Source: Oscillospiraceae bacterium
Lineage (GTDB): Bacteria; Bacillota; Clostridia; Oscillospirales; Oscillospiraceae
DNA: 64,000 nt
Direction of reading: 5' to 3'
NCBI GenBank assembly: GCA_902795345.1
Contig: CADBKO010000028.1
Location: 1-64,000 of the forward strand
Below are positions 10,582 to 52,685 of this stretch, piece after piece. The notes beneath the pieces were generated by a model. The model made no database searches, had not been told where the DNA came from, and saw nothing but the letters and a program-made list of their open reading frames with translations. How positions within the stretch are numbered: position 1 is the first letter of the stretch; every line of letters starts with the position of its first letter. A program made the position numbers and the translations under genes.

Positions 10582-13140
10582 GTGGGCGGGGAAAAAGACA
10601 AAACGCTGCGGCGGACGGTGATCGGCATCCTGGCCCACGTGGACGCCGGGAAGACCACCCTTTCGGAAGCCCTGCTCTATGAATCCGGGGCCATCCGGAA
10701 CCTGGGGCGGGTGGACCACGGGGACGCCCACCTGGATACCTTCGCCCTGGAACGGCAGCGGGGCATCACCATCTTCGCAAAGCAGGCCCGGCTGCGGCTC
10801 CCCGGCTGGCAGGCGACCCTGCTGGACACCCCCGGGCATGTGGACTTTTCCCCGGAGGCGGAACGCACCCTGGATGTGCTGGACTGCGCCGTGCTGGTGG
10901 TGAGCGCTCCCGCGGGGGTGCAGAGCCACACCCGCACCCTCTGGAAGCTGCTGCGGCAGCGGAATATCCCCACCTTCCTCTTTGTGAACAAGGTGGACCT
11001 GCCCTATGCCGGGAAGGAAAAACTGCTGGCGGCCCTGCGCAGCCAGCTGGGGGAGGGCATCTTCGACCTGGAAGCGCCGGATTGGGAGGCCATGTCCCTC
11101 GCGGACGAAGCCTTGCTGGAGGAATATCTGGCCGGCGGCAGCCTGAAGGAAACGAGCCTCCGCGCCGCCGTGAAGGCGGGCAAGCTCTTCCCCTGCCGCT
11201 TCGGAGCGGCGTTGCATCTCCGGGGAGCCGCCGAGTTCCTGGATGACCTGCGCCGCCTGGCCCCCGATTCCCCGGCGGGGGAAGAGTTTGGCGCCCGGGT
11301 GTTCAAGATCGGCAGGGAAGACGGGGTGCGCCTCAGCTATATGAAGATCACCGGCGGCGTCCTGCGGGTGCGGGACAGCCTCTCCGGTCCCGGCTGGACG
11401 GAAAAGGTGAGCCAGCTCCGCTTTTACAGCGGCGGCAAGTTCGAGCAGGGGGAGGAAGCCCTCCCCGGGGACATAGTTGCCGTCGCGGGCCTCAGCCAGA
11501 CCCGGCCCGGCCAGGGCCTGGGGACGGAGGGCAGCGGGGAAAAAGCCCGGCTCAGTCCTGTCGTCACCTGCCAGGTGCTGCTGCCCGCGGGCTATGACCC
11601 CCACCGGGCCCTGATGCAGCTGCGGCAGCTGGAGGAGGAGGAACCCCAGCTCAGGGTCAGCTGGGAGGAACGGACGAAGGCGCTCTGTGTCCAGGTCATG
11701 GGTCCGGTGCAGCTGGAAGTCCTCCATTCCCTCCTTATGGAACGCTTCGGCCTGGACGCATCCTTCGGCCCGCCCCGGGTGCTTTATCGGGAGACCATCG
11801 CCGACACGGTGGAGGGCGTGGGCCACTATGAACCCCTGCGGCACTATGCGGAGGTGCATCTGCTCCTCTCCCCGGGGGAACGGGGCAGCGGCGTCACGGT
11901 GAAAAGCGATGTGAGCGAGGACGAGCTGGACCGCAACTGGCAGCGGCTCATCCTGACCCATGTGCTGGAAAAGCCCCACCTGGGCGTGCTCACCGGCGCA
12001 CCCATCACGGATATCGAGATCAAGCTCGTGGCCGGGAAAGCCCACCTGAAGCACACCGAGGGGGGCGATTTCCGCCAGGCCACCTATCGGGCCATCCGCC
12101 AGGGATTGATGCAGGCAAAGAGCGTCCTGCTGGAGCCCTGGTATCAATTCCGCATCGAGCTGCCCCGGGAGAGCGTGGGCAGGGTCCTCAGCGACCTCAC
12201 CCGCCTGGGGGCGGAGACGTCTTCCCCCGTCACCGACGGGGAGACCGCCGTTCTCCGGGGAAAAGCCCCCGTAGCCGCCCTGCGGGACTATCCCGAGACC
12301 CTGGCCGCCGTAACCCACGGCCTGGGCAGCATCTCCCTCACCCCCGACGGCTACGCCCCCTGCCGGGAGCAGGAACGCATCGTGGCGGAGACCGGCTATG
12401 ACCCCGCCGCCGACCAGGATAACCCGCCCCACAGCGTATTCTGCGAGCATGGGGCAGGGGTGACGGTGCCCTGGGACCAGGTCTTTTCCCGCATGCACCT
12501 GCCCAGCGTCCTCAAGCCCCCGAAGGAAGAACCCTCCCTCCGGGAACAGGCGGCGCGGTATATCGCCCAGGTTGCCCTGGACGACCAGCTGGCCGCCATC
12601 TTCGAGCGGACCTACGGACCCATCCGCCGGGAGAAGGCCCGGGCCATGGCGGTGCGCAGCGCTCCCCGGGCGGACAAGCCCTGGAAGATGACTGCCGCCG
12701 ACGAGGGGCCGGAATACCTCCTCATTGACGGCTACAACATCATCCACGCCTGGGACAGCCTCCGCAAGCTGGCGGAGGAGAACCTGGATGCGGCCCGGCA
12801 CCGGCTGATCGAGCGGCTGCGGAATTACCAGGGGTTCAAGCAATCCCCGGTGATCGTGGTCTTCGACGCCTATAAGGTGAAGGGCAACCCCGGCTCCATC
12901 GAGCACCTGGGGGGCCTGGACGTGGTCTACACCAGGGAGGCGGAGACGGCGGACATGTATATCGAAAAGGCCACCTACGACCTGCGGAAGCACCACCGGG
13001 TCCGGGTCGCCACCTCCGACGGGATGGAGCAGGTCATCATCCTGGGCCACGGGGCCCTGCGGGTGCCCGCCCTCAGCTTCGAGGCGGAGGTCACGGAGGT
13101 GGAGGCCACCATCCGCGCTTATCTGAAAGAACTGCAATAG
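10582..13140 (+). CDS. Tet(M)-like ribosomal-protection GTPase fused to YacP/Rae1-type nuclease
   Basis: The 852-residue protein joins two ribosome-associated modules. Residues 1 to about 690 are a translational GTPase of the Tet(M)/EF-G class: P-loop AHVDAGKT (18-25), switch region ERQRGITI, DTPGHVDF and NKVDL, followed by EF-G-like domains II-V. Residues about 711-852 are an NYN/PIN domain of the YacP (Rae1) type: YLLIDGYNIIHAWDSL, VVFDAYKVKG, EAETADMYIEKA and VATSDGMEQVIILG, with acidic residues at metal-site positions. Rae1 in Bacillus subtilis cuts mRNA in the ribosomal A site, where Tet(M) also binds. The GTG start follows GGGAGGTGAAAGC. Tetracycline resistance cannot be claimed from sequence. 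Confidence 0.85.
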   Translation: MGGEKDKTLRRTVIGILAHVDAGKTTLSEALLYESGAIRNLGRVDHGDAHLDTFALERQRGITIFAKQARLRLPGWQATLLDTPGHVDFSPEAERTLDVLDCAVLVVSAPAGVQSHTRTLWKLLRQRNIPTFLFVNKVDLPYAGKEKLLAALRSQLGEGIFDLEAPDWEAMSLADEALLEEYLAGGSLKETSLRAAVKAGKLFPCRFGAALHLRGAAEFLDDLRRLAPDSPAGEEFGARVFKIGREDGVRLSYMKITGGVLRVRDSLSGPGWTEKVSQLRFYSGGKFEQGEEALPGDIVAVAGLSQTRPGQGLGTEGSGEKARLSPVVTCQVLLPAGYDPHRALMQLRQLEEEEPQLRVSWEERTKALCVQVMGPVQLEVLHSLLMERFGLDASFGPPRVLYRETIADTVEGVGHYEPLRHYAEVHLLLSPGERGSGVTVKSDVSEDELDRNWQRLILTHVLEKPHLGVLTGAPITDIEIKLVAGKAHLKHTEGGDFRQATYRAIRQGLMQAKSVLLEPWYQFRIELPRESVGRVLSDLTRLGAETSSPVTDGETAVLRGKAPVAALRDYPETLAAVTHGLGSISLTPDGYAPCREQERIVAETGYDPAADQDNPPHSVFCEHGAGVTVPWDQVFSRMHLPSVLKPPKEEPSLREQAARYIAQVALDDQLAAIFERTYGPIRREKARAMAVRSAPRADKPWKMTAADEGPEYLLIDGYNIIHAWDSLRKLAEENLDAARHRLIERLRNYQGFKQSPVIVVFDAYKVKGNPGSIEHLGGLDVVYTREAETADMYIEKATYDLRKHHRVRVATSDGMEQVIILGHGALRVPALSFEAEVTEVEATIRAYLKELQ

Positions 13141-18151: not shown

Positions 18152-18333
18152 ACGCTTCCTTTCCGCCCGTTATTTGCAGGGAGATGCGCCGTGAAAAGCG
18201 CGTCTTCCTTTTCTTTTTCTGCTGTGTTCAAGGCGGCCGGCTGAAGGGGATAAAACGGCGGATCGCTCGGCGGAAATGTGAAAAACTATGAAATATGACG
18301 AAAATAAAATGGCCGAATTGTGCAGAATGACGG

Positions 18334-18361
18334 TTGACTTTTCCGAAAGCCAGAGTAAAAT
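18334..18361 (+). promoter_or_regulatory. Promoter of the DUF3870 operon
   Basis: TTGACT (18334-18339) and TAAAAT (18356-18361) are separated by 16 bp. The predicted start near 18368 would give a leader of about 140 nt ending at the DUF3870 start codon. Confidence 0.65.
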
Positions 18362-18364
18362 AAA

Positions 18365-18480
18365 GGGCGAAATTGAGATCGTTCCCCACGGAGCAATCGC
18401 CAAAAGCGAATTGCGGATCCGTCCGGAAGCCGGTAAAAGTTTGAACGGGCATCGCCCGGAATGGCTTTTGCCTTTTTTTT
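18365..18480 (+). promoter_or_regulatory. Structured leader with intrinsic terminator, candidate riboswitch
   Basis: The leader folds by eye into three parts. A short hairpin GGGCGA...TCG..CCC lies at 18365-18386. A long hairpin pairs ACGGA-GCAAT-CGC (18388-18400) with GCG-ATTGC-TCCGT (18406-18422). A terminator pairs GGTAAAAG (18432-18439) with CTTTTGCC (18465-18472) around an inner CGGGC/GCCCG stem and is followed by eight T. Only about 10 bp separate the T-run from the ribosome binding site region, so DUF3870 expression from the upstream promoter must pass this terminator. It does not match any riboswitch class I recognise. Confidence 0.55.
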
Positions 18481-18508
18481 CGCCATTCAAAGAGAGGGGA
18501 GGGAGACG

Positions 18509-18835
18509 ATGCGCGAACGGAATACGGTCCTGCTGTCGGGCTACGCCAAACTTCCGACAAACATAACCGCTGAAATGGTTTATGAAATGCTGGCAGTTGC
18601 GGTGCTGTTCGACAGACGAAGCGGCATCATCCTTGAAGCAGAGGCGTCCATGGTGACGAACATCGCCAGAAAGTTCATCGCCGGGCTGCTGGTCGGCTAC
18701 AACCTGAACGACGGGCCCGATGAACTGATGGAAGATTTCGAGACCTATTACCACGGCAACGCGAAACGCGCTCTGGAGACCGCGATCCGGATGATATTCA
18801 GCAAGTACCAGGAATACATCGCTGAGCAGCAATAA
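18509..18835 (+). CDS. DUF3870 domain protein
   Basis: A 108-residue protein of the uncharacterised DUF3870 family, recognised by LLSGYAKLPTNITAEMVYEM, the VTNIARKFIAGLLVGYNLND region and the AIRMIFSKYQEYI end. It is a small soluble protein, with no membrane segment. The ATG at 18509 follows GAGGGGAGGGAG. The gene opens an operon with two cytidylate-kinase-like proteins and a symporter fusion. Function unknown. Confidence 0.8.
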   Translation: MRERNTVLLSGYAKLPTNITAEMVYEMLAVAVLFDRRSGIILEAEASMVTNIARKFIAGLLVGYNLNDGPDELMEDFETYYHGNAKRALETAIRMIFSKYQEYIAEQQ

Positions 18836-18903
18836 ACAAAAACAATAAACAACCAACCGTTGTGCCCGGGGCGTCTGACAACAGACGCATCGACCGCGGC
18901 ATG

Positions 18904-18961
18904 AGCCGGTATATCAGAGAGAAGGGAGTCCCTTCCCATCCCCGATGTACCGGCTTTTTTT
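18904..18961 (+). terminator. Terminator/attenuator before the first cytidylate-kinase-like gene
   Basis: AGCCGGTA (18904-18911) pairs perfectly with TACCGGCT (18948-18955), followed by seven T; an inner AAGGG/CCCTT hairpin sits in the loop. A further hairpin GCGTCTG-ACAA-CAGACGC lies just upstream at 18871-18888. The ribosome binding site AAGGAGGG begins 7 bp after the T-run. No promoter fits between, so expression of the next gene needs read-through. That suggests regulated attenuation rather than a plain gene end. Confidence 0.65.
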
Positions 18962-18981: not shown

Positions 18982-19629
18982 TTGAAGCTGGATAAGACCA
19001 AAATGTCCATCACGGTGGAAAGCGAGCTTTGCGCCGGCGGGGAGGAGGTGGCGGAGGCCCTGGCGGACATGCTGAAGCTGAAATGCCATTCCGATGAGAT
19101 CACCGGTATCGCATCCAAGCTGAGCGGCATTTCCCGGAAGCTGCTTCGCCGTTACGAGGCAAAGCGGGTGCGCCAGGCCTATGACCTCTCCGCGGAGAGC
19201 GAGGATGCCCTGCATATCCCGGCGGAGAAATACTTCCTCGCCGCGCAGGTGGCCGCCTGCCGCACGCTGGCGGACGAAGGCCCCTGCGTACTCCTGGACC
19301 ACCACTCCAATGCAGCCCTGGCGGATCGGGAGAACCATGTGGGCATTTTCATCCATGGGGACCGGGAGGACCGGCTGAACAATTATGCAAAGAAGCATCT
19401 GCAGACCCCCTACCGGGCCCGGCGGGACTTCAACCGGGAGGATCGGGAGCGTACAAGCTGCTTCCGGGCCCTTTCCCGGGACTGGGGCAAGGCTTCCAAC
19501 TATTGCCTGACGGTCAATTCCTCCCGCGCGTCTGCTCAGACCCTGGCGCAAAACATCGTGCGTTATCTGGAGACCGTCACCCAGGAGGAGCTTGTCCACC
19601 CTATCTCGGCGCAGGAGCGCAGCGCCTAA
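18982..19629 (+). CDS. Cytidylate-kinase-like protein, copy 1
   Basis: A 215-residue member of the cytidylate-kinase-like family. The start is TTG at 18982 behind AAGGAGGG, supported by alignment with copy 2 (M-K-L-D-K-T-K-M against M-K-L-N-K-N-T-M). The usual nucleotide loop of the family (GSGGREIA type) reads CAGGEEVA, and the usual VIVGRCAD-type motif reads VLLDHHSN, so classical kinase activity is doubtful. The WGKASNYCLTVNSS end keeps the family pattern. It shares AYDL, AAQ-AAC and GPCVLLD blocks with the other two copies in this operon. A nucleotide-sensing role is inference. Confidence 0.75.
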   Translation: MKLDKTKMSITVESELCAGGEEVAEALADMLKLKCHSDEITGIASKLSGISRKLLRRYEAKRVRQAYDLSAESEDALHIPAEKYFLAAQVAACRTLADEGPCVLLDHHSNAALADRENHVGIFIHGDREDRLNNYAKKHLQTPYRARRDFNREDRERTSCFRALSRDWGKASNYCLTVNSSRASAQTLAQNIVRYLETVTQEELVHPISAQERSA

Positions 19630-19748: not shown

Positions 19749-20390
19749 ATGAAGCTGAACAAAAACACGATGCACATCACCATCGAGACCGAAGCCGGCA
19801 GCAACGGAGAGGCTGTCGCCCGCTCCCTGTCTGAAATGCTGAATATCCCCTGCTATGGGGAAGAGATCCTGGATAAAGCCGCGGAGCTCAGCGGGATCCC
19901 CGCTTCTCAGCTCCATCGCTATGACGGGCGCAGCGTCCGGGCCGCCTATGACCTGCTGGCCGACGACAAGACGCCCCTGAAAATGCGTCCTGCCTCCGAC
20001 TTCGTGGCCGCGCAGATCGCCGCCTGCCAGGCCCTGGCGGCTCAGGGCGCCTGCATCCTGGTGGACCGTCATTCCGGCCAGGCCCTGGAGGGCAGCGCGG
20101 ATCATGTCCGCATCTTCATCCACGCCGGTTTTGACGACCGTGCCGCGAACCTGGCCGCCAAGGAAGGAAAGACCGTCGAGGAAGCGAAGCACATGCTGAA
20201 GAAGCTGGATCGCAGCTACCGCAGCTATTACCGCGGCAGCGACCGGGGCTGGGGCGAAGCGGATCGTTACGATCTGAGCCTCAATGCCTCCGACGCGGAT
20301 GTGAACGCGCTGACGGCCAATGTGATGGAGTTCCTTTCCGCCATGTGCGGCGAAATCAAGCAGAACGTGGGGCAGCGCAAGGCAGTCTGA
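19749..20390 (+). CDS. Cytidylate-kinase-like protein, copy 2
   Basis: A 213-residue paralogue of the previous protein and of the C-terminal domain of the following symporter. The nucleotide-loop region reads GSNGEAVA. The GACILVDRHSG segment replaces the usual glycine-arginine motif. The lid/acceptor region LDRSYRSYYRGSDRGWGEAD and YDLSLNAS match the family well, making this the least divergent copy. The ATG at 19749 follows ATGAGGAAACGACC. It lies 119 bp after copy 1 with no terminator between, so they are probably co-transcribed. Confidence 0.8.
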   Translation: MKLNKNTMHITIETEAGSNGEAVARSLSEMLNIPCYGEEILDKAAELSGIPASQLHRYDGRSVRAAYDLLADDKTPLKMRPASDFVAAQIAACQALAAQGACILVDRHSGQALEGSADHVRIFIHAGFDDRAANLAAKEGKTVEEAKHMLKKLDRSYRSYYRGSDRGWGEADRYDLSLNASDADVNALTANVMEFLSAMCGEIKQNVGQRKAV

Positions 20391-20461: not shown

Positions 20462-22495
20462 ATGAATCTCAATACAGCCCAGGCCATCGGCCTGCTGATC
20501 AGCATACTGGGCATCGCGGTCCTCGCCATCGTCACGGGGATGCGCAAGCAAGCAAAGGGAAGCGGAAACTCCGCACCCGTCGTCGCCGGCCTCATCATGG
20601 GGACGCTGGTGGGCGGCTCCTCCACTGTGGGAACGGCGCAGCTTGCCTATAACTACGGCTTGTCCGCCTGGTGGTTCACCCTGGGCGGGGGCCTTGCCTG
20701 CCTCGTGCTGGCGCTGCTGTTCGCAGGCCCCTGGCGGCACACCGGGGCGATGACGCTCATCGCCATCATCAGCAAGGAATTCGGGCCCCGCGTCGGCCTC
20801 ACGGCCTCCCTCCTCAGCAGCGTGGGTACGTTTATCAATATCATTTCGCAGCTCATTGCCGGAACGGCGGTCATCGCCGTGGTGGCGCCCAGCCTGGGCC
20901 TGCTCCCGGCCCTGCTGATCACGGCGGCCTTTATGGCGCTCTATGTCATCGGCGGCGGCATCCGCGGCGCAGGCATGGTGGGGATCCTGAAGCTGGCGCT
21001 GCTGTATGTTTCCATGATCTGCTGCGGCATCCTCGCGCTGCATCTCAGCGGCGGCTTTTCCGGCTTCACCGCCATGGTGCAGGGGATCGAGAATCCGGAA
21101 GGCGTCCATTTCGGAAGCCTCTTCGCCCGGGGCCTGGGCAAGGATGGCGGCGCGTGCCTCTCCCTGATCCTGGGCGTGCTGACCACCCAGACCTATGCAC
21201 AGGCGGTCATGTCCGCCCGGACTGACCGGCAGGCGCGCATCGGCGCCCTGGTCAGCGCCGTGATGATTCCGCCCATCGGCGCGGGCGGCATCCTGGTGGG
21301 CCTTTTCATGCGCGCCCATTTCCCCGGCCTGGCGGCCAAGACAGCTCTGACCGCCTTTGCGACGGAGTATCTGCCCCCGCTGCTCAGCGGCGTTCTCCTC
21401 GGGACCCTGTTCATCGCCGTCGTCGGCACCGGCGCGGGCCTGGCCATGGGCATCTCCACCATCATCCGCCGGGACATCATCCAGCGCTTTTCCGACCGCA
21501 TCGCCGATCCCAGGGTCAATGAGGTCCTTTCCAAGCTGGTGATCCTGCTGGTGCTGGGCCTGGGCGTGGTCCTCTCCTGCGGCTCCCTGGGGGATACGAT
21601 CCTCTCCTTCGCCTTCATGTCCATGGGCCTGCGGGGCGCGGTAGTCTTTATCCCCATGCTGTGCGCCCTGTGGCTGCCGGGGCGGGTGAACCGGAATTTT
21701 GCGATGGCTGCCGTGATCGCGGGCCCCGCAGCGGTGCTGCTTTTCGGCACGAAGCTGAGCCTGCCCGGCGGTATCGACCCGCTGTTCGCCGGTGTCGCGG
21801 CTGCGGCGCTGCTGTGCGTCGCCGGGGCAGTGGTGGGCAACCGCCGGAAAGAGATCCACGTGGAGCACGACCTGCCGAAGAGCGGGGAAGTGCGCGTGAT
21901 CTCCGTGGAAAGCGAGCTCTATGCCCAGGGCAAAGCTCTGGCGTCGGCCCTTGGGGAAATGCTGGGCGTTCCCTGCTATGATGAAGCGATCCTCAGTACT
22001 GCATCGGAGCTGAGCCATATCCCGGAGCAGGTCCTTCGCCGGTATGACGGGAAAAGCGTATTCGCCGCCTACGACCTCGCCGCGAGGGATACTTCCTCCA
22101 TGCGTCTGCCCACCACCGGCGAGATGATCTCCGCGCAGTCCGCCGCCTGCAGCGAGCTGGCAAAGAAGGGCCCCTGCGTACTAGTGGACCATTTCTGCTC
22201 CGTCGGGGCTAAGGAGACGCCCAGCGTGTCCGTATTCGTCCATGCCGATTTTGAGACCCGCGCCGATCGTCTGTCCAAGGAAAAGGGGATCGGCCCCGCC
22301 GCGGCGCGGCGGCAGCTCCGGCGGCTGGACCGGGCCCGCAGCAGGTATTATCGGATCGGAAACCGGAAATGGGGTCAGGCAAAAGCCTATACCCTCACGG
22401 TGGATGCCAGCTCCACGGAGCCGGAAGTCCTCGCGGAGGGCATCGCCCAGTGGCTCACCGGCCGGGAGGCGGAGAAGAACCGCCGCGCGGGCTGA
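20462..22495 (+). CDS. Sodium:solute symporter fused to a cytidylate-kinase-like domain
   Basis: The 677-residue protein has about 13 predicted membrane helices in residues 1-460 with the sodium:solute symporter pattern (MGTLVGGSSTVGTAQLAYNY). A basic linker (VVGNRRKEIHVEHD) leads to a soluble cytidylate-kinase-like domain at about 477-677. That domain has YAQGKALA at the nucleotide loop, RRYDGKSVFAAYDLAAR, GPCVLVDHFCS and RRLDRARSRYYRIGNRKWGQ, paralogous to the two upstream genes. A transporter with a tethered nucleotide-binding-like domain suggests gating or sensing by a nucleotide. The transported solute is unknown. The start ATG at 20462 has only a weak ribosome binding site. Confidence 0.82.
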   Translation: MNLNTAQAIGLLISILGIAVLAIVTGMRKQAKGSGNSAPVVAGLIMGTLVGGSSTVGTAQLAYNYGLSAWWFTLGGGLACLVLALLFAGPWRHTGAMTLIAIISKEFGPRVGLTASLLSSVGTFINIISQLIAGTAVIAVVAPSLGLLPALLITAAFMALYVIGGGIRGAGMVGILKLALLYVSMICCGILALHLSGGFSGFTAMVQGIENPEGVHFGSLFARGLGKDGGACLSLILGVLTTQTYAQAVMSARTDRQARIGALVSAVMIPPIGAGGILVGLFMRAHFPGLAAKTALTAFATEYLPPLLSGVLLGTLFIAVVGTGAGLAMGISTIIRRDIIQRFSDRIADPRVNEVLSKLVILLVLGLGVVLSCGSLGDTILSFAFMSMGLRGAVVFIPMLCALWLPGRVNRNFAMAAVIAGPAAVLLFGTKLSLPGGIDPLFAGVAAAALLCVAGAVVGNRRKEIHVEHDLPKSGEVRVISVESELYAQGKALASALGEMLGVPCYDEAILSTASELSHIPEQVLRRYDGKSVFAAYDLAARDTSSMRLPTTGEMISAQSAACSELAKKGPCVLVDHFCSVGAKETPSVSVFVHADFETRADRLSKEKGIGPAAARRQLRRLDRARSRYYRIGNRKWGQAKAYTLTVDASSTEPEVLAEGIAQWLTGREAEKNRRAG

Positions 22496-22622: not shown

Positions 22623-25600
22623 TCAGTATTCAAATTCGCCTTCAAAGACCTCCACGGCGCTGCCGGCGAGGAGGATGCGCTCCCCGTCGTAATTCACCGT
22701 CAGGTCGCCGCCCAGCACCTTCACCGTCACGTCGGCGCCCTTGGGGCAGAACCCCTTTTCCACGGCGGCCACCACTGCCGCGCAGGCGCCGGTGCCGCAG
22801 GCCAGCGTTTCGCCGCTGCCCCGCTCCCACACCCGCATCCGCAGGGTGGTGGGGGTGACGACCCGGACGAACTCCGTGTTGATCCGCTCCGGGAACAGGG
22901 GATCATGCTCGAATTTCGGGCCGATCTGCGGCAGGTCCAGGCCGTCGATGCCGTCGCAGAAGACCACGCAATGGGGGTTGCCCACACTCACGCAGGTGAC
23001 CTTGTATTCCTGCCCGGCCACGGTCATGGGCCAGTCCACCATCTTCTCGGCGCTGGCGGCGGCGGGTATCTTCTCGGGCCGCAGCTCCGCCCTGCCCATG
23101 TCCACGGAAACGCTGCTGACCTTCCCGTCCCGCAGGAAGAGCCGCATGGGGTAAATGCCGCTTTCCGTCTCGATGCGCAGGTATTCGCTGCGGACATAGC
23201 CCTTGTCGTAGAGGTATTTCGCCACGCAGCGGATGTTGTTGCCTGCCATCCGGCCCTCGCTGCCGTCCCGATTGAAGGAGTGCATCTTCGCGTCGGCCTT
23301 GTAGGAGCGCTCGATGAGCACGATGCTGTCGGAGCCGATGCCGTAGTGGGGGGCGCAGAGGCTGACGCAGAGGGATTCCGGACAGGTGATGGAGGCGTCG
23401 AAGTTCTCGATAAAGATGCCGTCGTTGCCGCAGGACTGCATTTTGGCAAAGCGGACCTTCTGCTTCCAGGGGCGCATGGCGTTGATGTCCACCAGCTCCG
23501 TGTTGTCCGGGCGGAAGCGGCTCTCGATGATCTCCGCCAGGGCATTGGCCGTGTCGGTGCTGGTGAGGCAGGGGATACCCAGCTGCATGGCCCGCCGGTG
23601 GAGGGCGATGAAGTCCCCCATGGTGGCGTCCTTCACCGCGCCGGTGTAGATGATATAGCTGAGGTGGCCGCTCTCCATGAGGGCCATGATCTCCCCGCTC
23701 TCCGTGGCGTTGGGCAGGCTTTCCACGGGGATGCCCATGCGCCCGATGGCCTCCGCCGTCCCGACGGTGGCATAGAGCTTGATGCCCAGGTCATAGAAGC
23801 GCTTGGCCAGAGCGGTGATGTCCGGGTAGTCGGCGTCCTCCACGCTGAGGAGCACCCCGGCGTCGCTGTTGTCCGCAGGCAGCTTGAAGCCCGCCGCCGT
23901 CAGGCCCTTGTAAAGGGCCTCCGCCTTGGTCTTGCCGATGCCCAGCACTTCGCCGGTGGATTTCATCTCCGGGCCAAGGATGGAGTTTGCGTCGCTGAGC
24001 TTCTCGAAGGAGAAGACCGGCACCTTCACCGCGCAGTAGGGCGGCGTGCGGTACAGCCCCGTGCCGCAGCCCAGGTCCGCCAGGTTCGCCCCCAGCATGA
24101 CCCGGGCGGCCAGGTCCACCATGGGCACTCCGGTCACCTTGGAGATATAAGGCACCGTCCGGGAGGCCCGGGGGTTCACCTCAATGACATAGAGCTCGTT
24201 TTCGTAAATGAGGTACTGGATGTTCACCAGGCCCCGGGTGCCCAGGGCCAGGGCCAGCTTTTCCGAACAGTCGCAGATCTTCTGGAGGAAGCGGTCCGTC
24301 AGGTTGTAGGGGGGATAGACGGCGATGGAGTCGCCGGAGTGGATGCCCGCCCGCTCGATATGCTCCATGACGCCGGGGATCAGCACGTCCTTCCCGTCGG
24401 AGATCACGTCCACCTCCAGCTCGATGCCGGGCATATACTTGTCCACCAGCACCGGGTTTTCCACGCCCCCGGCCAGGATGGTCTCCATATACTGCCGGGT
24501 GTGCGCCTCCGTGCGGGAGATGGTCATGTTCTGGCCGCCGATGACGTAGGAAGGCCGCAGCAGCACGGGATAACCCAGGTCGCGCCCCGCCTGCACCGCC
24601 TCCTCGATGGTGTTCACGCCCCGGCCGCTGGGCCGCCGGATGTGGAACTGCTCCAGCAGGGCGTCGAACCGGGCCCGGTCCTCGGCGATGTCGATGCTCT
24701 CGGCGCTGGTGCCCAGGATGGGGATGCCCGCCTTATCCAGGAAAGCGGTGAGCTTGATGGCCGTCTGGCCGCCGAAGGCCACCACCACCCCCACGGGCTT
24801 CTCCACCCGGATGATGCCCATGACGTCCTCCGGCGTCAAGGGCTCGAAGTAGAGCCGGTCCGCCGTGTCGTAGTCCGTGGATACGGTCTCCGGGTTGTTG
24901 TTCACGATCACCACGTCGTAGCCCATTTCCCGCAGGGTCCAGACGCAGTGGACGGAGGAGTAGTCGAATTCGATGCCCTGGCCGATGCGGATGGGGCCGG
25001 AGCCCAGCACCATCACCACCGGCTTCCCGTCCCGGGGAAAGCTGCGGGCTTCGCAGTCGCCGTCCGCCTCGGAATAGAAATAGGGCTTGTCGGTGCCGAA
25101 TACAGAGGCGCAGGTCTTGACGATCTGATAGGTGAGCTTGCTTTCCGGCAGCTCCTTCGCGCCGCTGAGACGGCGGATGGCAGAGTCCGGGTAGCCCAGC
25201 TCCTTGGCCTTTTTGTAGAGCGCGGGGGTGAGGCCGGAGGCCAGCTCCGCCTCCAGGTCCACCAGGTTTTGCAGCTTTTTCAGGAAATAGGGGTCGATCA
25301 TGGTGATGCGGTAGATCTCCTCTATGGAGACGCCGCTTTTCAGAGCTTCAAAGACGGTGAAGATCCGCCGGTCGTCCTGATCCGCCAGCCGCTCCATGAC
25401 GCTGCGGCTGTCCAGGGGCGGGGCGTTGAGGGTGTCCAGGCCGATCTCCGCACCCCGCACCGCCTTCATCATGGCGGCCTCAAAGGTGGGGGCGATGGAC
25501 ATGACTTCGCCGGTGGCCTTCATCTGGGTGCCCAGCTTCCGGCTGGAGCCGGAGAACTTGTCGAAGGGCCACTTGGGGAATTTCACCACGATGTAGTGCA

Positions 25601-26648
25601 CGTCGGGCTCGAAGCCCTGGAGGGAAGCGCCGGTCTCCTCGTTTTTGATCTCCGAAAGCAGGTAGCCCAGGGCCATCTTGGTGGTGATCTTGGCGATGGG
25701 GTAGCCCGTGGCCTTGCTGGCGAGAGCCGAGGAGCGGGAGACGCGGGGGTTGACTTCGATGACGGCGTATTCGCTGCCGTCGGGCTTCAGGGAAAACTGG
25801 CAGTTGCAGCCGCCGATGATGCCGATGGCCGCCACGATGTCCAGGGCCGCCTGGCGCAGCATATCGAATTCCCGCTGGGTGAGGGTCAGGGCTGGGGCCG
25901 CCACGATGCTGTCCCCGGTGTGGACGCCCACGGGGTCCACGTTCTCCATGCTGCAAACGCTGACGGCGTTGCCCTCCCGGTCCCGCATGGTCTCAAATTC
26001 GATCTCCTTCCAGCCGGAGATGCACTTTTCCACCAGGATCTGGGTGATGGGGGAGAGGTCCAGGCCGGTGCGGGCGATGGTGCGCAGCTCCTCCTCGTCC
26101 GCCGCGATGCCGCCGCCGGTGCCCCCCAGGGTGAAGGCGGGGCGGACGATGACGGGGTAGCCGATCTCTCCTGCGACGCGCAGGGCCGTTTCCAGGTCGC
26201 AGGCGATGTCGGAGGGGACCACCGGCTGGCCGATGGCCTTCATGGTGTCCCGGAACAGTTCCCGGTCCTCCGCCTTGTCGATGCCTTCGATATCGGTGCC
26301 CAGGAGCCGGACCCCCAGCTCGTCCAGCACTCCATCCCGCTTGAGCTGCATGGCCAGGGTGAGGCCCGTCTGGCCCCCCAGGCCCGCCAGCAGCCCGTCG
26401 GGCTTCTCCTTCTCCAGGATGCGCCGAAGGGTCTCCTCGTTCAGGGGCTCCAGATAGATCTCGTCGGCCATGGCCTTGTCGGTCATGATGGTGGCGGGAT
26501 TGGAGTTGACCAGAACGGTGTTGATCCCCTCCTGCCGCAGCACCCGGCAGGCCTGGGTGCCCGCATAGTCGAATTCGGCGGCCTGCCCGATCACGATGGG
26601 GCCGGAGCCGATCACCAGTACCTTGCGTATGCTTTCATCTTTGGGCAT
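22623..26648 (-). CDS. carB: Carbamoyl-phosphate synthase large subunit fused to diaminopimelate epimerase
   Basis: One 1341-residue frame carries two enzymes. Residues 1 to about 1060 are CarB: two ATP-grasp halves (VLVIGSGPIVIGQAAEFDYA and VMVLGSGPIRIGQGIEFDYS) and the C-terminal MGS-like allosteric domain. Residues about 1064-1341 are DapF: MQSCGNDGIFIENF, the catalytic cysteines in AGNNIRCVAKY (near 1141) and LACGTGACAAV (near 1284), and SVGNPHCVVF. CarB makes carbamoyl phosphate for arginine and pyrimidines; DapF interconverts LL- and meso-diaminopimelate. The ATG at 26648 follows GGGAGGAATACTT. The gene follows argF, and carA is not in the window. No stop or frameshift separates the halves. 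Confidence 0.93.
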   Translation of the reverse strand: MPKDESIRKVLVIGSGPIVIGQAAEFDYAGTQACRVLRQEGINTVLVNSNPATIMTDKAMADEIYLEPLNEETLRRILEKEKPDGLLAGLGGQTGLTLAMQLKRDGVLDELGVRLLGTDIEGIDKAEDRELFRDTMKAIGQPVVPSDIACDLETALRVAGEIGYPVIVRPAFTLGGTGGGIAADEEELRTIARTGLDLSPITQILVEKCISGWKEIEFETMRDREGNAVSVCSMENVDPVGVHTGDSIVAAPALTLTQREFDMLRQAALDIVAAIGIIGGCNCQFSLKPDGSEYAVIEVNPRVSRSSALASKATGYPIAKITTKMALGYLLSEIKNEETGASLQGFEPDVHYIVVKFPKWPFDKFSGSSRKLGTQMKATGEVMSIAPTFEAAMMKAVRGAEIGLDTLNAPPLDSRSVMERLADQDDRRIFTVFEALKSGVSIEEIYRITMIDPYFLKKLQNLVDLEAELASGLTPALYKKAKELGYPDSAIRRLSGAKELPESKLTYQIVKTCASVFGTDKPYFYSEADGDCEARSFPRDGKPVVMVLGSGPIRIGQGIEFDYSSVHCVWTLREMGYDVVIVNNNPETVSTDYDTADRLYFEPLTPEDVMGIIRVEKPVGVVVAFGGQTAIKLTAFLDKAGIPILGTSAESIDIAEDRARFDALLEQFHIRRPSGRGVNTIEEAVQAGRDLGYPVLLRPSYVIGGQNMTISRTEAHTRQYMETILAGGVENPVLVDKYMPGIELEVDVISDGKDVLIPGVMEHIERAGIHSGDSIAVYPPYNLTDRFLQKICDCSEKLALALGTRGLVNIQYLIYENELYVIEVNPRASRTVPYISKVTGVPMVDLAARVMLGANLADLGCGTGLYRTPPYCAVKVPVFSFEKLSDANSILGPEMKSTGEVLGIGKTKAEALYKGLTAAGFKLPADNSDAGVLLSVEDADYPDITALAKRFYDLGIKLYATVGTAEAIGRMGIPVESLPNATESGEIMALMESGHLSYIIYTGAVKDATMGDFIALHRRAMQLGIPCLTSTDTANALAEIIESRFRPDNTELVDINAMRPWKQKVRFAKMQSCGNDGIFIENFDASITCPESLCVSLCAPHYGIGSDSIVLIERSYKADAKMHSFNRDGSEGRMAGNNIRCVAKYLYDKGYVRSEYLRIETESGIYPMRLFLRDGKVSSVSVDMGRAELRPEKIPAAASAEKMVDWPMTVAGQEYKVTCVSVGNPHCVVFCDGIDGLDLPQIGPKFEHDPLFPERINTEFVRVVTPTTLRMRVWERGSGETLACGTGACAAVVAAVEKGFCPKGADVTVKVLGGDLTVNYDGERILLAGSAVEVFEGEFEY

Positions 26649-26657
26649 AAGTATTCC

Positions 26658-26854
26658 TCCCGGAAAAGGGCTTGCATTGGGCCTCGTCGTCGCAAGCTCC
26701 ATATCCCTCGCCTCGACCCGGTCGGTCAAGGCTCGCTCATTTCGCTGCTCCTCCTCCCCAAATCGCGGCCACCGCAGCGGCCGCGATTTGGAAAGGACGT
26801 TTCGCCGGAATCTTTCGGGCATTTGCGCTTGCGCGAATGTCCGTCATTCCGGCG
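26658..26854 (-). repeat. Palindrome-rich spacer between argF and carB-dapF
   Basis: Three inverted repeats lie in this spacer: GCTTGC/GCAAGC (26670-26697), CCAAATCGCGGCC/GGCCGCGATTTGG (26758-26791, perfect 13 bp) and CGCCGGAAT/ATTCCGGCG (26803-26854) with a nested GGGCATT/AATGTCC stem. None has a T-run. They may be a mobile intergenic repeat or mRNA-processing hairpins between the two genes. Confidence 0.5.
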
Positions 26855-52362: not shown

Positions 52363-52456
52363 ACAGGATAGGCGCAGCAAAAGGGCGCTGCGGCGCAAGC
52401 AGCGATCACGACATGACCAATTCCCCGTGGCCAGAGGCATTTCGAGGCCTCCGCGT

Positions 52457-52657
52457 CAAACGTGCGGCAGGTTTCCTGGCTCATGGATCAACGCTTGTCG
52501 GCCGCCTTCCCGGTATGGACCAGTGGCACAGCAAATGGCCGAAAACTCCCCAAATACAGTGACGGGATCGTACAGGATTCGCACCTGTTTCCCTTTTGAC
52601 CCGCGCAGCGAAAGAACGCTTGAACTCCGCTTCCGCCCGCAGGCACCGCAGTTTCCT
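52457..52657 (-). promoter_or_regulatory. Cobalamin riboswitch
   Basis: On the minus strand the aptamer begins near GCGGTGCC. It contains GGGAAACAGGTGCGAATCC, GATCCCGTCACTGTA and GTGCCACTGG, and ends in the B12 box GAGCCAGGAAACCTGCCG (52465-52482). Adenosylcobalamin binding should promote the downstream terminator and shut off the corrinoid importer. The divergent biosynthesis operon on the plus strand is not downstream of it. Confidence 0.92.
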
Positions 52658-52685
52658 ATTCACTTTTTATGCTCTATTCCAAGTA

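Follow-up and report, generated by a model that had tools for sequence, protein, structure and literature searches.

How can a DUF3870 gene be transcribed when a strong intrinsic terminator stands directly before its ribosome binding site, and what would lift the termination? The question is raised by positions 18334-18508 of the window, i.e., of the whole stretch of 64,000 nucleotides analysed here, which is part of contig C28 of a draft genome of 2.75 Mb. The initial annotation listed a promoter, an imperfect hairpin, the terminator and a ribosome binding site before DUF3870. All of them are present, but the outer helix of the hairpin (P0 below) and a second element at 18854-18961 had been overlooked. 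As to the interpretation, an unclassified riboswitch or attenuator, the words “attenuator” and “unclassified” are borne out, whereas the riboswitch aptamer is not.

Layout of the locus

The features are given below. R1 denotes a model built from the DUF3870 leaders of close relatives only; the second model, R2, matches the window element E1 with E 5e-14, the E1 sequence itself being included in it.

18334-18361, +: promoter; -35 TTGACT (18334-18339), -10 TAAAAT (18356-18361), spacer 16, 10/12 consensus matches
18378-18434, +: E1, candidate antiterminator hairpin; R1/R2 match 18376-18440, covariation, own fold -19.7 kcal/mol
18378-18381/18431-18434, +: helix P0 of E1
18382-18392/18418-18428, +: helix P1 of E1
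18429-18430, +: GC bulge of E1
18394-18400/18406-18413, +: helix P2 of E1, with CAAAA loop
18432-18480, +: terminator t1, overlapping P0 of E1 at 18432-18434
18432-18439/18465-18472, +: arms of t1, GGTAAAAG/CTTTTGCC
18446-18450/18454-18458, +: inner stem of t1, CGGGC/GCCCG
18473-18480, +: T8 run of t1
after t1 and ahead of the DUF3870 ATG at 18509, +: ribosome binding site GAGAGGGGAGGGAG
18509-18835, +: DUF3870 gene (PF12986, E 5.9e-23), candidate RNA-binding antiterminator by its linkage to the element
18854-18916, +: E2, candidate antiterminator hairpin; P0 at 18856-18859/18907-18910, R2 match, fold -26.2 kcal/mol
18904-18961, +: terminator t2, arms 18904-18911/18948-18955, T run to 18961, overlapping P0 of E2
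18982-19629, +: cytidylate kinase-like protein (PF13189), first gene past E2, TTG start inferred
19749-20390, +: cytidylate kinase-like protein, second copy (profile match)
20462-22495, +: SSF transporter fused to a cytidylate kinase-like domain (profile match)

The promoter by itself is weak evidence, since three promoter-like sites occur within 4 kb against 1.4 expected; a TTGAC(T/A)-type promoter is found at the equivalent place in most of the close E1 leaders. The upstream LysR gene is set apart from the DUF3870 operon by a terminator-like site (18178-18209) directly after it. Leader-peptide attenuation was considered and rejected: the open frame spanning the leader (18288-18566) starts ahead of the promoter and matches no Pfam family.

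No riboswitch or leader family of Rfam 15 reaches its gathering threshold on any of the elements (best sub-threshold E 1.5-1.7), so a known riboswitch is ruled out, in agreement with the initial annotation. The search itself works: it recovered a T-box and known riboswitches at other places in these sequences. The RNA element is uncatalogued, i.e., missing from Rfam.

The hairpin and its overlap with the terminator

Folding of the single leader sequence gives a modest gain over shuffled sequences (z -1.92; 5 of 200 shuffles are equally good). The thermodynamics alone being unremarkable, we relied on comparative evidence from same-genus genomes and 24 named contigs carrying DUF3870. This comparison of homologous DUF3870 leaders, which the initial annotation had suggested, showed the hairpin to be conserved with strong covariation. 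The close leaders share CGUUC..CGGAGC..CAAAA..AAUCCG..GAAGCCGGUAAAAG, then CUUUUGCC and a U run. Two-sided changes are found in 12 of 17 pairs over ten aligned leaders, a value reached by none of 500 shuffles, and, with P0 counted, in 20 of 21 pairs of an alignment made with R1. P1 and P2 were imposed on that alignment through R1; P0 was not, since R1 lacks it.

P0 is formed by the four bases before P1, which pair with the beginning of the terminator arm and leave a 2-nt bulge, mostly GC. It covaries independently (the outer pair is A-U in 12 elements and G-C in 10), with variants such as ACCA/UGGU in L018 and GUCG/CGAC in L019. Its 3' strand (18431-18434) overlaps the terminator arm 18432-18439, and the hairpin and the terminator exclude each other because P0 uses the 5' arm of the latter. 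Both structures are conserved in relatives, and the earlier reading of the leader as an attenuator is thereby upheld. In the energy model, E1 alone folds into P0-P1-P2, while in the full leader the terminator forms and P0 opens; E2 with t2 behaves in the same way. The default state is accordingly predicted to be off, because the terminator wins in the full-leader fold.

Outside the helices, most P2 loops in the set of 22 aligned elements are pentaloops, CAAAA or the like, and in the close group the GC/GGAG side, the AA on the 3' side, the CAAAA loop and the GC bulge are all well conserved. In the wider family the P0/bulge/P1 junction is kept and the loops drift. A pseudoknot between the CAAAAG loop and CUUUUGCC of the terminator was noticed by eye in E1 and discarded, being absent from L018 and L012. 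That the RNA element is real and conserved we consider practically certain; that the hairpin would act as an antiterminator is very probable, judging by the overlap and the predicted folds.

Occurrence beside DUF3870 and elsewhere

R1 recovers the same element once more, in the interval that separates DUF3870 from the following gene, and this second element is found at the orthologous position in nearly all close loci, including 18854-18916 of the window. The window E2 is among the weakest copies (R2: E 0.0036, 23 bits, its sequence being absent from the model). In the close loci, E2 is followed by genes for cytidylate kinase-like proteins and for transporters of SSF or NCS2-like type, some of which are fused to a cytidylate kinase-like domain. 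The same C-terminal domain is thus carried by two unrelated transporter families, SSF in the window (20462-22495, +) and NCS2-like in L019 (6595-8565), and two stand-alone copies precede the window SSF gene; the fused domain may be a further component of the regulation. A good E1 lies at a contig end in L036 (G001:C125:55-119), a locus of a draft genome in which DUF3870 was not found; the gene was probably lost at the contig break.

Of the sampled genomes, 25 of 391 in the class and 55 of 398 (~14%) in the phylum carry DUF3870. R2 gave no match in the distant DUF3870 loci, which first suggested that the element is confined to close relatives; this was abandoned when reading of the sequences showed a diverged architecture there. 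Many distant loci have, beside DUF3870, a P0 (e.g., GCUG/CAGC, GCCA/UGGC or GUUG/CAAC), a bulge ending in C, a U-rich/A-rich P1, an asymmetric loop, P2 and an overlapping terminator. Pair counts from these diverged elements are not independent proof, the sequences having been chosen for having structure.

A descriptor was therefore written to avoid picking by eye, yet after the distant loci had been read. Its loose version was dropped for too high a background (34/53 near DUF3870 vs 47/196 far). The stricter version adopted matches 29 of 94 terminator-like sites near DUF3870 vs 11 of 725 elsewhere, and 8 of 53 vs 3 of 323 when only distant loci are counted. Applied unchanged to 62 fresh loci, it matches 18 of 131 sites near DUF3870 vs 7 of 616 elsewhere (p 1.4e-9); descriptor p-values are approximate, since sites rather than loci were counted and the set includes loci closely related to earlier ones or duplicating them (L106 repeats L029). 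Three of the seven matches elsewhere look genuine (L080, L110 and L091).

Some loci differ in arrangement. Tandem DUF3870 genes occur in L132 (1963-2241 and 2549-2824), L130, L102 and L114, and the element follows the second copy in L132 and L130. In L110 two successive elements, each with its own terminator, lie downstream of DUF3870 (2341-2399 and 2653-2710). Elements are found on both sides of DUF3870 in G1085 and G867, as in the window.

A third model, R3, comprising P0 and P1, was run over the 391 genomes of the class and matches in ten of them: 7 of the 25 with DUF3870 vs 3 of the 366 without (p 2e-7). This association is biased upwards, since R3 was trained on elements adjoining DUF3870; with the training genomes excluded, the figures are 2 of 17 vs 3 of 366 (p 0.017). 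On inspection each of the three matches in DUF3870-negative genomes looks spurious: one does not fold into the hairpin (L140), one lies inside a long open reading frame (L141) and one has no leader-plus-terminator arrangement (L143). Among the DUF3870-bearing genomes of the phylum R3 matches in 18 of 53, a figure that is not directly comparable with the class survey because more candidates were scored per genome. No element was detectable in 18 of 25 (class) and 35 of 53 (phylum) DUF3870-bearing genomes, where it may have been missed or DUF3870 may have other roles. In five loci (L072, L073, L074, L076 and L078) the R3 matches beside DUF3870 span only ~35 nt, possibly a shortened element without P2.

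In DUF3870-bearing genomes there are also elements away from DUF3870, which are complete leaders with terminators:

L135: trans element before an MR/MLE enzyme
L144: trans element before a DUF819 permease
L150: element before a nitroreductase, DUF3870 being 6.6 kb away on the same contig
L153: trans element before a methylmalonyl-CoA mutase
L168: trans element before an acetyl-CoA hydrolase/transferase

Some of them could be nearer to DUF3870 than is apparent, since the contigs are draft. The sole DUF3870 match of G497 has no adjoining element, and one element lies elsewhere in that genome. In L045, L053 and L061 the MR/MLE and DUF819 genes are directly beside DUF3870, with the element between.

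What would read the hairpin

We presume the following mechanism. Left alone, the leader RNA would fold into t1 (and, past DUF3870, into t2), and transcription would stop. A trans-acting factor would bind and stabilise the P0-P1-P2 hairpin; P0 would then take the start of the terminator 5' arm, and the polymerase would read through. Most likely this role falls to the DUF3870 protein, encoded between E1 and E2: it would regulate itself via E1 and turn on the kinase-like and transporter genes via E2, presumably on sensing a substrate or metabolite.

Among the 391 class genomes, at a limited search depth, convincing elements were found only in those carrying DUF3870, which makes DUF3870 probably the switch. 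The element follows DUF3870, the genes downstream are unrelated, and the P0/bulge/P1 junction is kept while the loops drift. For these reasons a protein operator is favoured, recognition by a trans-acting protein fits better than a conserved ligand pocket, and the aptamer of the initial annotation is not established. We are moderately confident, from this linkage, that the DUF3870 protein binds the hairpin and controls its own operon and others.

The protein itself was considered as well. Its predicted structure (pLDDT 89) is a compact alpha/beta domain, nearest to the IscU-like fold, which is no known RNA-binding fold (VIA Z 8.3, covering 96 of 108 residues), and unrelated families score almost as well; scores of this level are common for unrelated proteins, so the case for DUF3870 as a binder rests on linkage and not on fold. 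Foldseek with the DUF3870 model gave nothing at E<=0.001, and a fold search for HutP and NifU-type RNA-binding precedents revealed none. Positions 14, 87, 94 and 99 are K/R in more than 80% of 118 members; the window protein has a net charge of -4. PF12986 has been applied to a beta-rich Bacteroides domain (3kog; PMC4387736), which is uninformative on the window protein because the PF12986 profile used here matches no PDB chain. Our literature search found no paper that treats DUF3870 as a regulator.

The main alternative is an ON riboswitch that senses a metabolite: a small molecule at the P1-P2 internal loop or bulge would stabilise P0 and block termination, DUF3870 being merely one of the regulated genes. 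We find it doubtful, and it stays in consideration mainly because the close group keeps well conserved loop nucleotides that a ligand could use. The elements lie ahead of transporters and catabolic genes, tandem use within one operon is known for riboswitches, and in ON-type terminator riboswitches the closing helix likewise overlaps the terminator arm. However, no convincing element was seen in the 366 DUF3870-negative genomes, nor in 12 more searched at still greater depth (a small control), and the genes downstream share no evident metabolite, their functions being too diverse for any obvious single ligand. The element also differs from ON-type riboswitches in having no Rfam class, in being tied to one protein family and in showing no invariant pocket across the wider family, where it is the junction and not the loops that is kept.

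Another RNA-binding protein, e.g., the single ANTAR protein of the genome, which is encoded elsewhere, or a NusG paralogue, might read the hairpin with DUF3870 as only a frequent neighbour, since hairpins close to terminators are indeed targets of such factors acting in trans (PMC8934654). The likeness to ANTAR (EutV) is that of a protein-stabilised RNA excluding a terminator, the protein role here being our proposal. But an ANTAR motif is defined by hexaloops in which position 1 is A and position 4 is G (PMC8934654), whereas here there is one long hairpin with mostly CAAAA pentaloops, and it is with DUF3870 that the element recurs across several families and classes; we regard this alternative as improbable. 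A constitutive partial attenuator, with two conserved terminators setting expression ratios and no regulator, would suit a simple hairpin whose terminator dominates the minimum-energy fold, but is very improbable given that the non-helical positions (bulge, loop and asymmetric internal loop) and the P0/terminator overlap are conserved among widely diverged sequences, and that the element is repeatedly linked with a single protein family.

Returning to DUF3870 as the antiterminator, the nearest analogy is probably the E. coli bgl system, with an unrelated protein. HutP is a small regulator encoded at the start of the operon under its control, as DUF3870 presumably is; but HutP recognises UAG repeats, while the candidate operator here is a hairpin, and no HutP (PF09021) is found in the genome. 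In the bgl operon two terminators flank bglG (PMC8836124), and the window shows the same order of terminator, presumed regulator, terminator and transporter. As in the RAT of BglG, SacY and LicT, an imperfect hairpin shares its base with the 5' arm of an intrinsic terminator. Unlike RAT, the hairpin has a 2-nt 3' bulge between P0 and P1, an asymmetric internal loop and P2. DUF3870 is also a different domain from the CAT_RBD (PF03123) of BglG and LicT, which is absent from the genome (91% complete) and present in 4 of 14 control genomes.

On balance we would propose that DUF3870 is a new family of RNA-binding antiterminators in the phylum, which has its own operator (P0-bulge-P1-loop-P2) overlapping terminators and controls operons for transport and for organic-acid or amino-acid catabolism both in cis and in trans. 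To our knowledge, only a handful of protein families are described in bacteria that antiterminate through RNA operators of their own. If true, the proposal would add a further one, present in about 14% of the sampled phylum genomes (55/398), and an RNA family absent from Rfam; it would also give DUF3870 a function and predict regulons for DUF819, MR/MLE, CoA-transferase and SSF genes.

Other observations in the window are as follows. A single frame of 1399 aa (22623-26822, -) joins the carbamoyl-phosphate synthase large subunit with diaminopimelate epimerase, an unusual fusion, and a frame of 852 aa (10582-13140, +) encodes an EF-G/TetM-like GTPase with a C-terminal YacP-like NYN domain. A cobalamin riboswitch (52449-52660, -) and a lysine riboswitch (2715-2881, +) are both found at gathering score.
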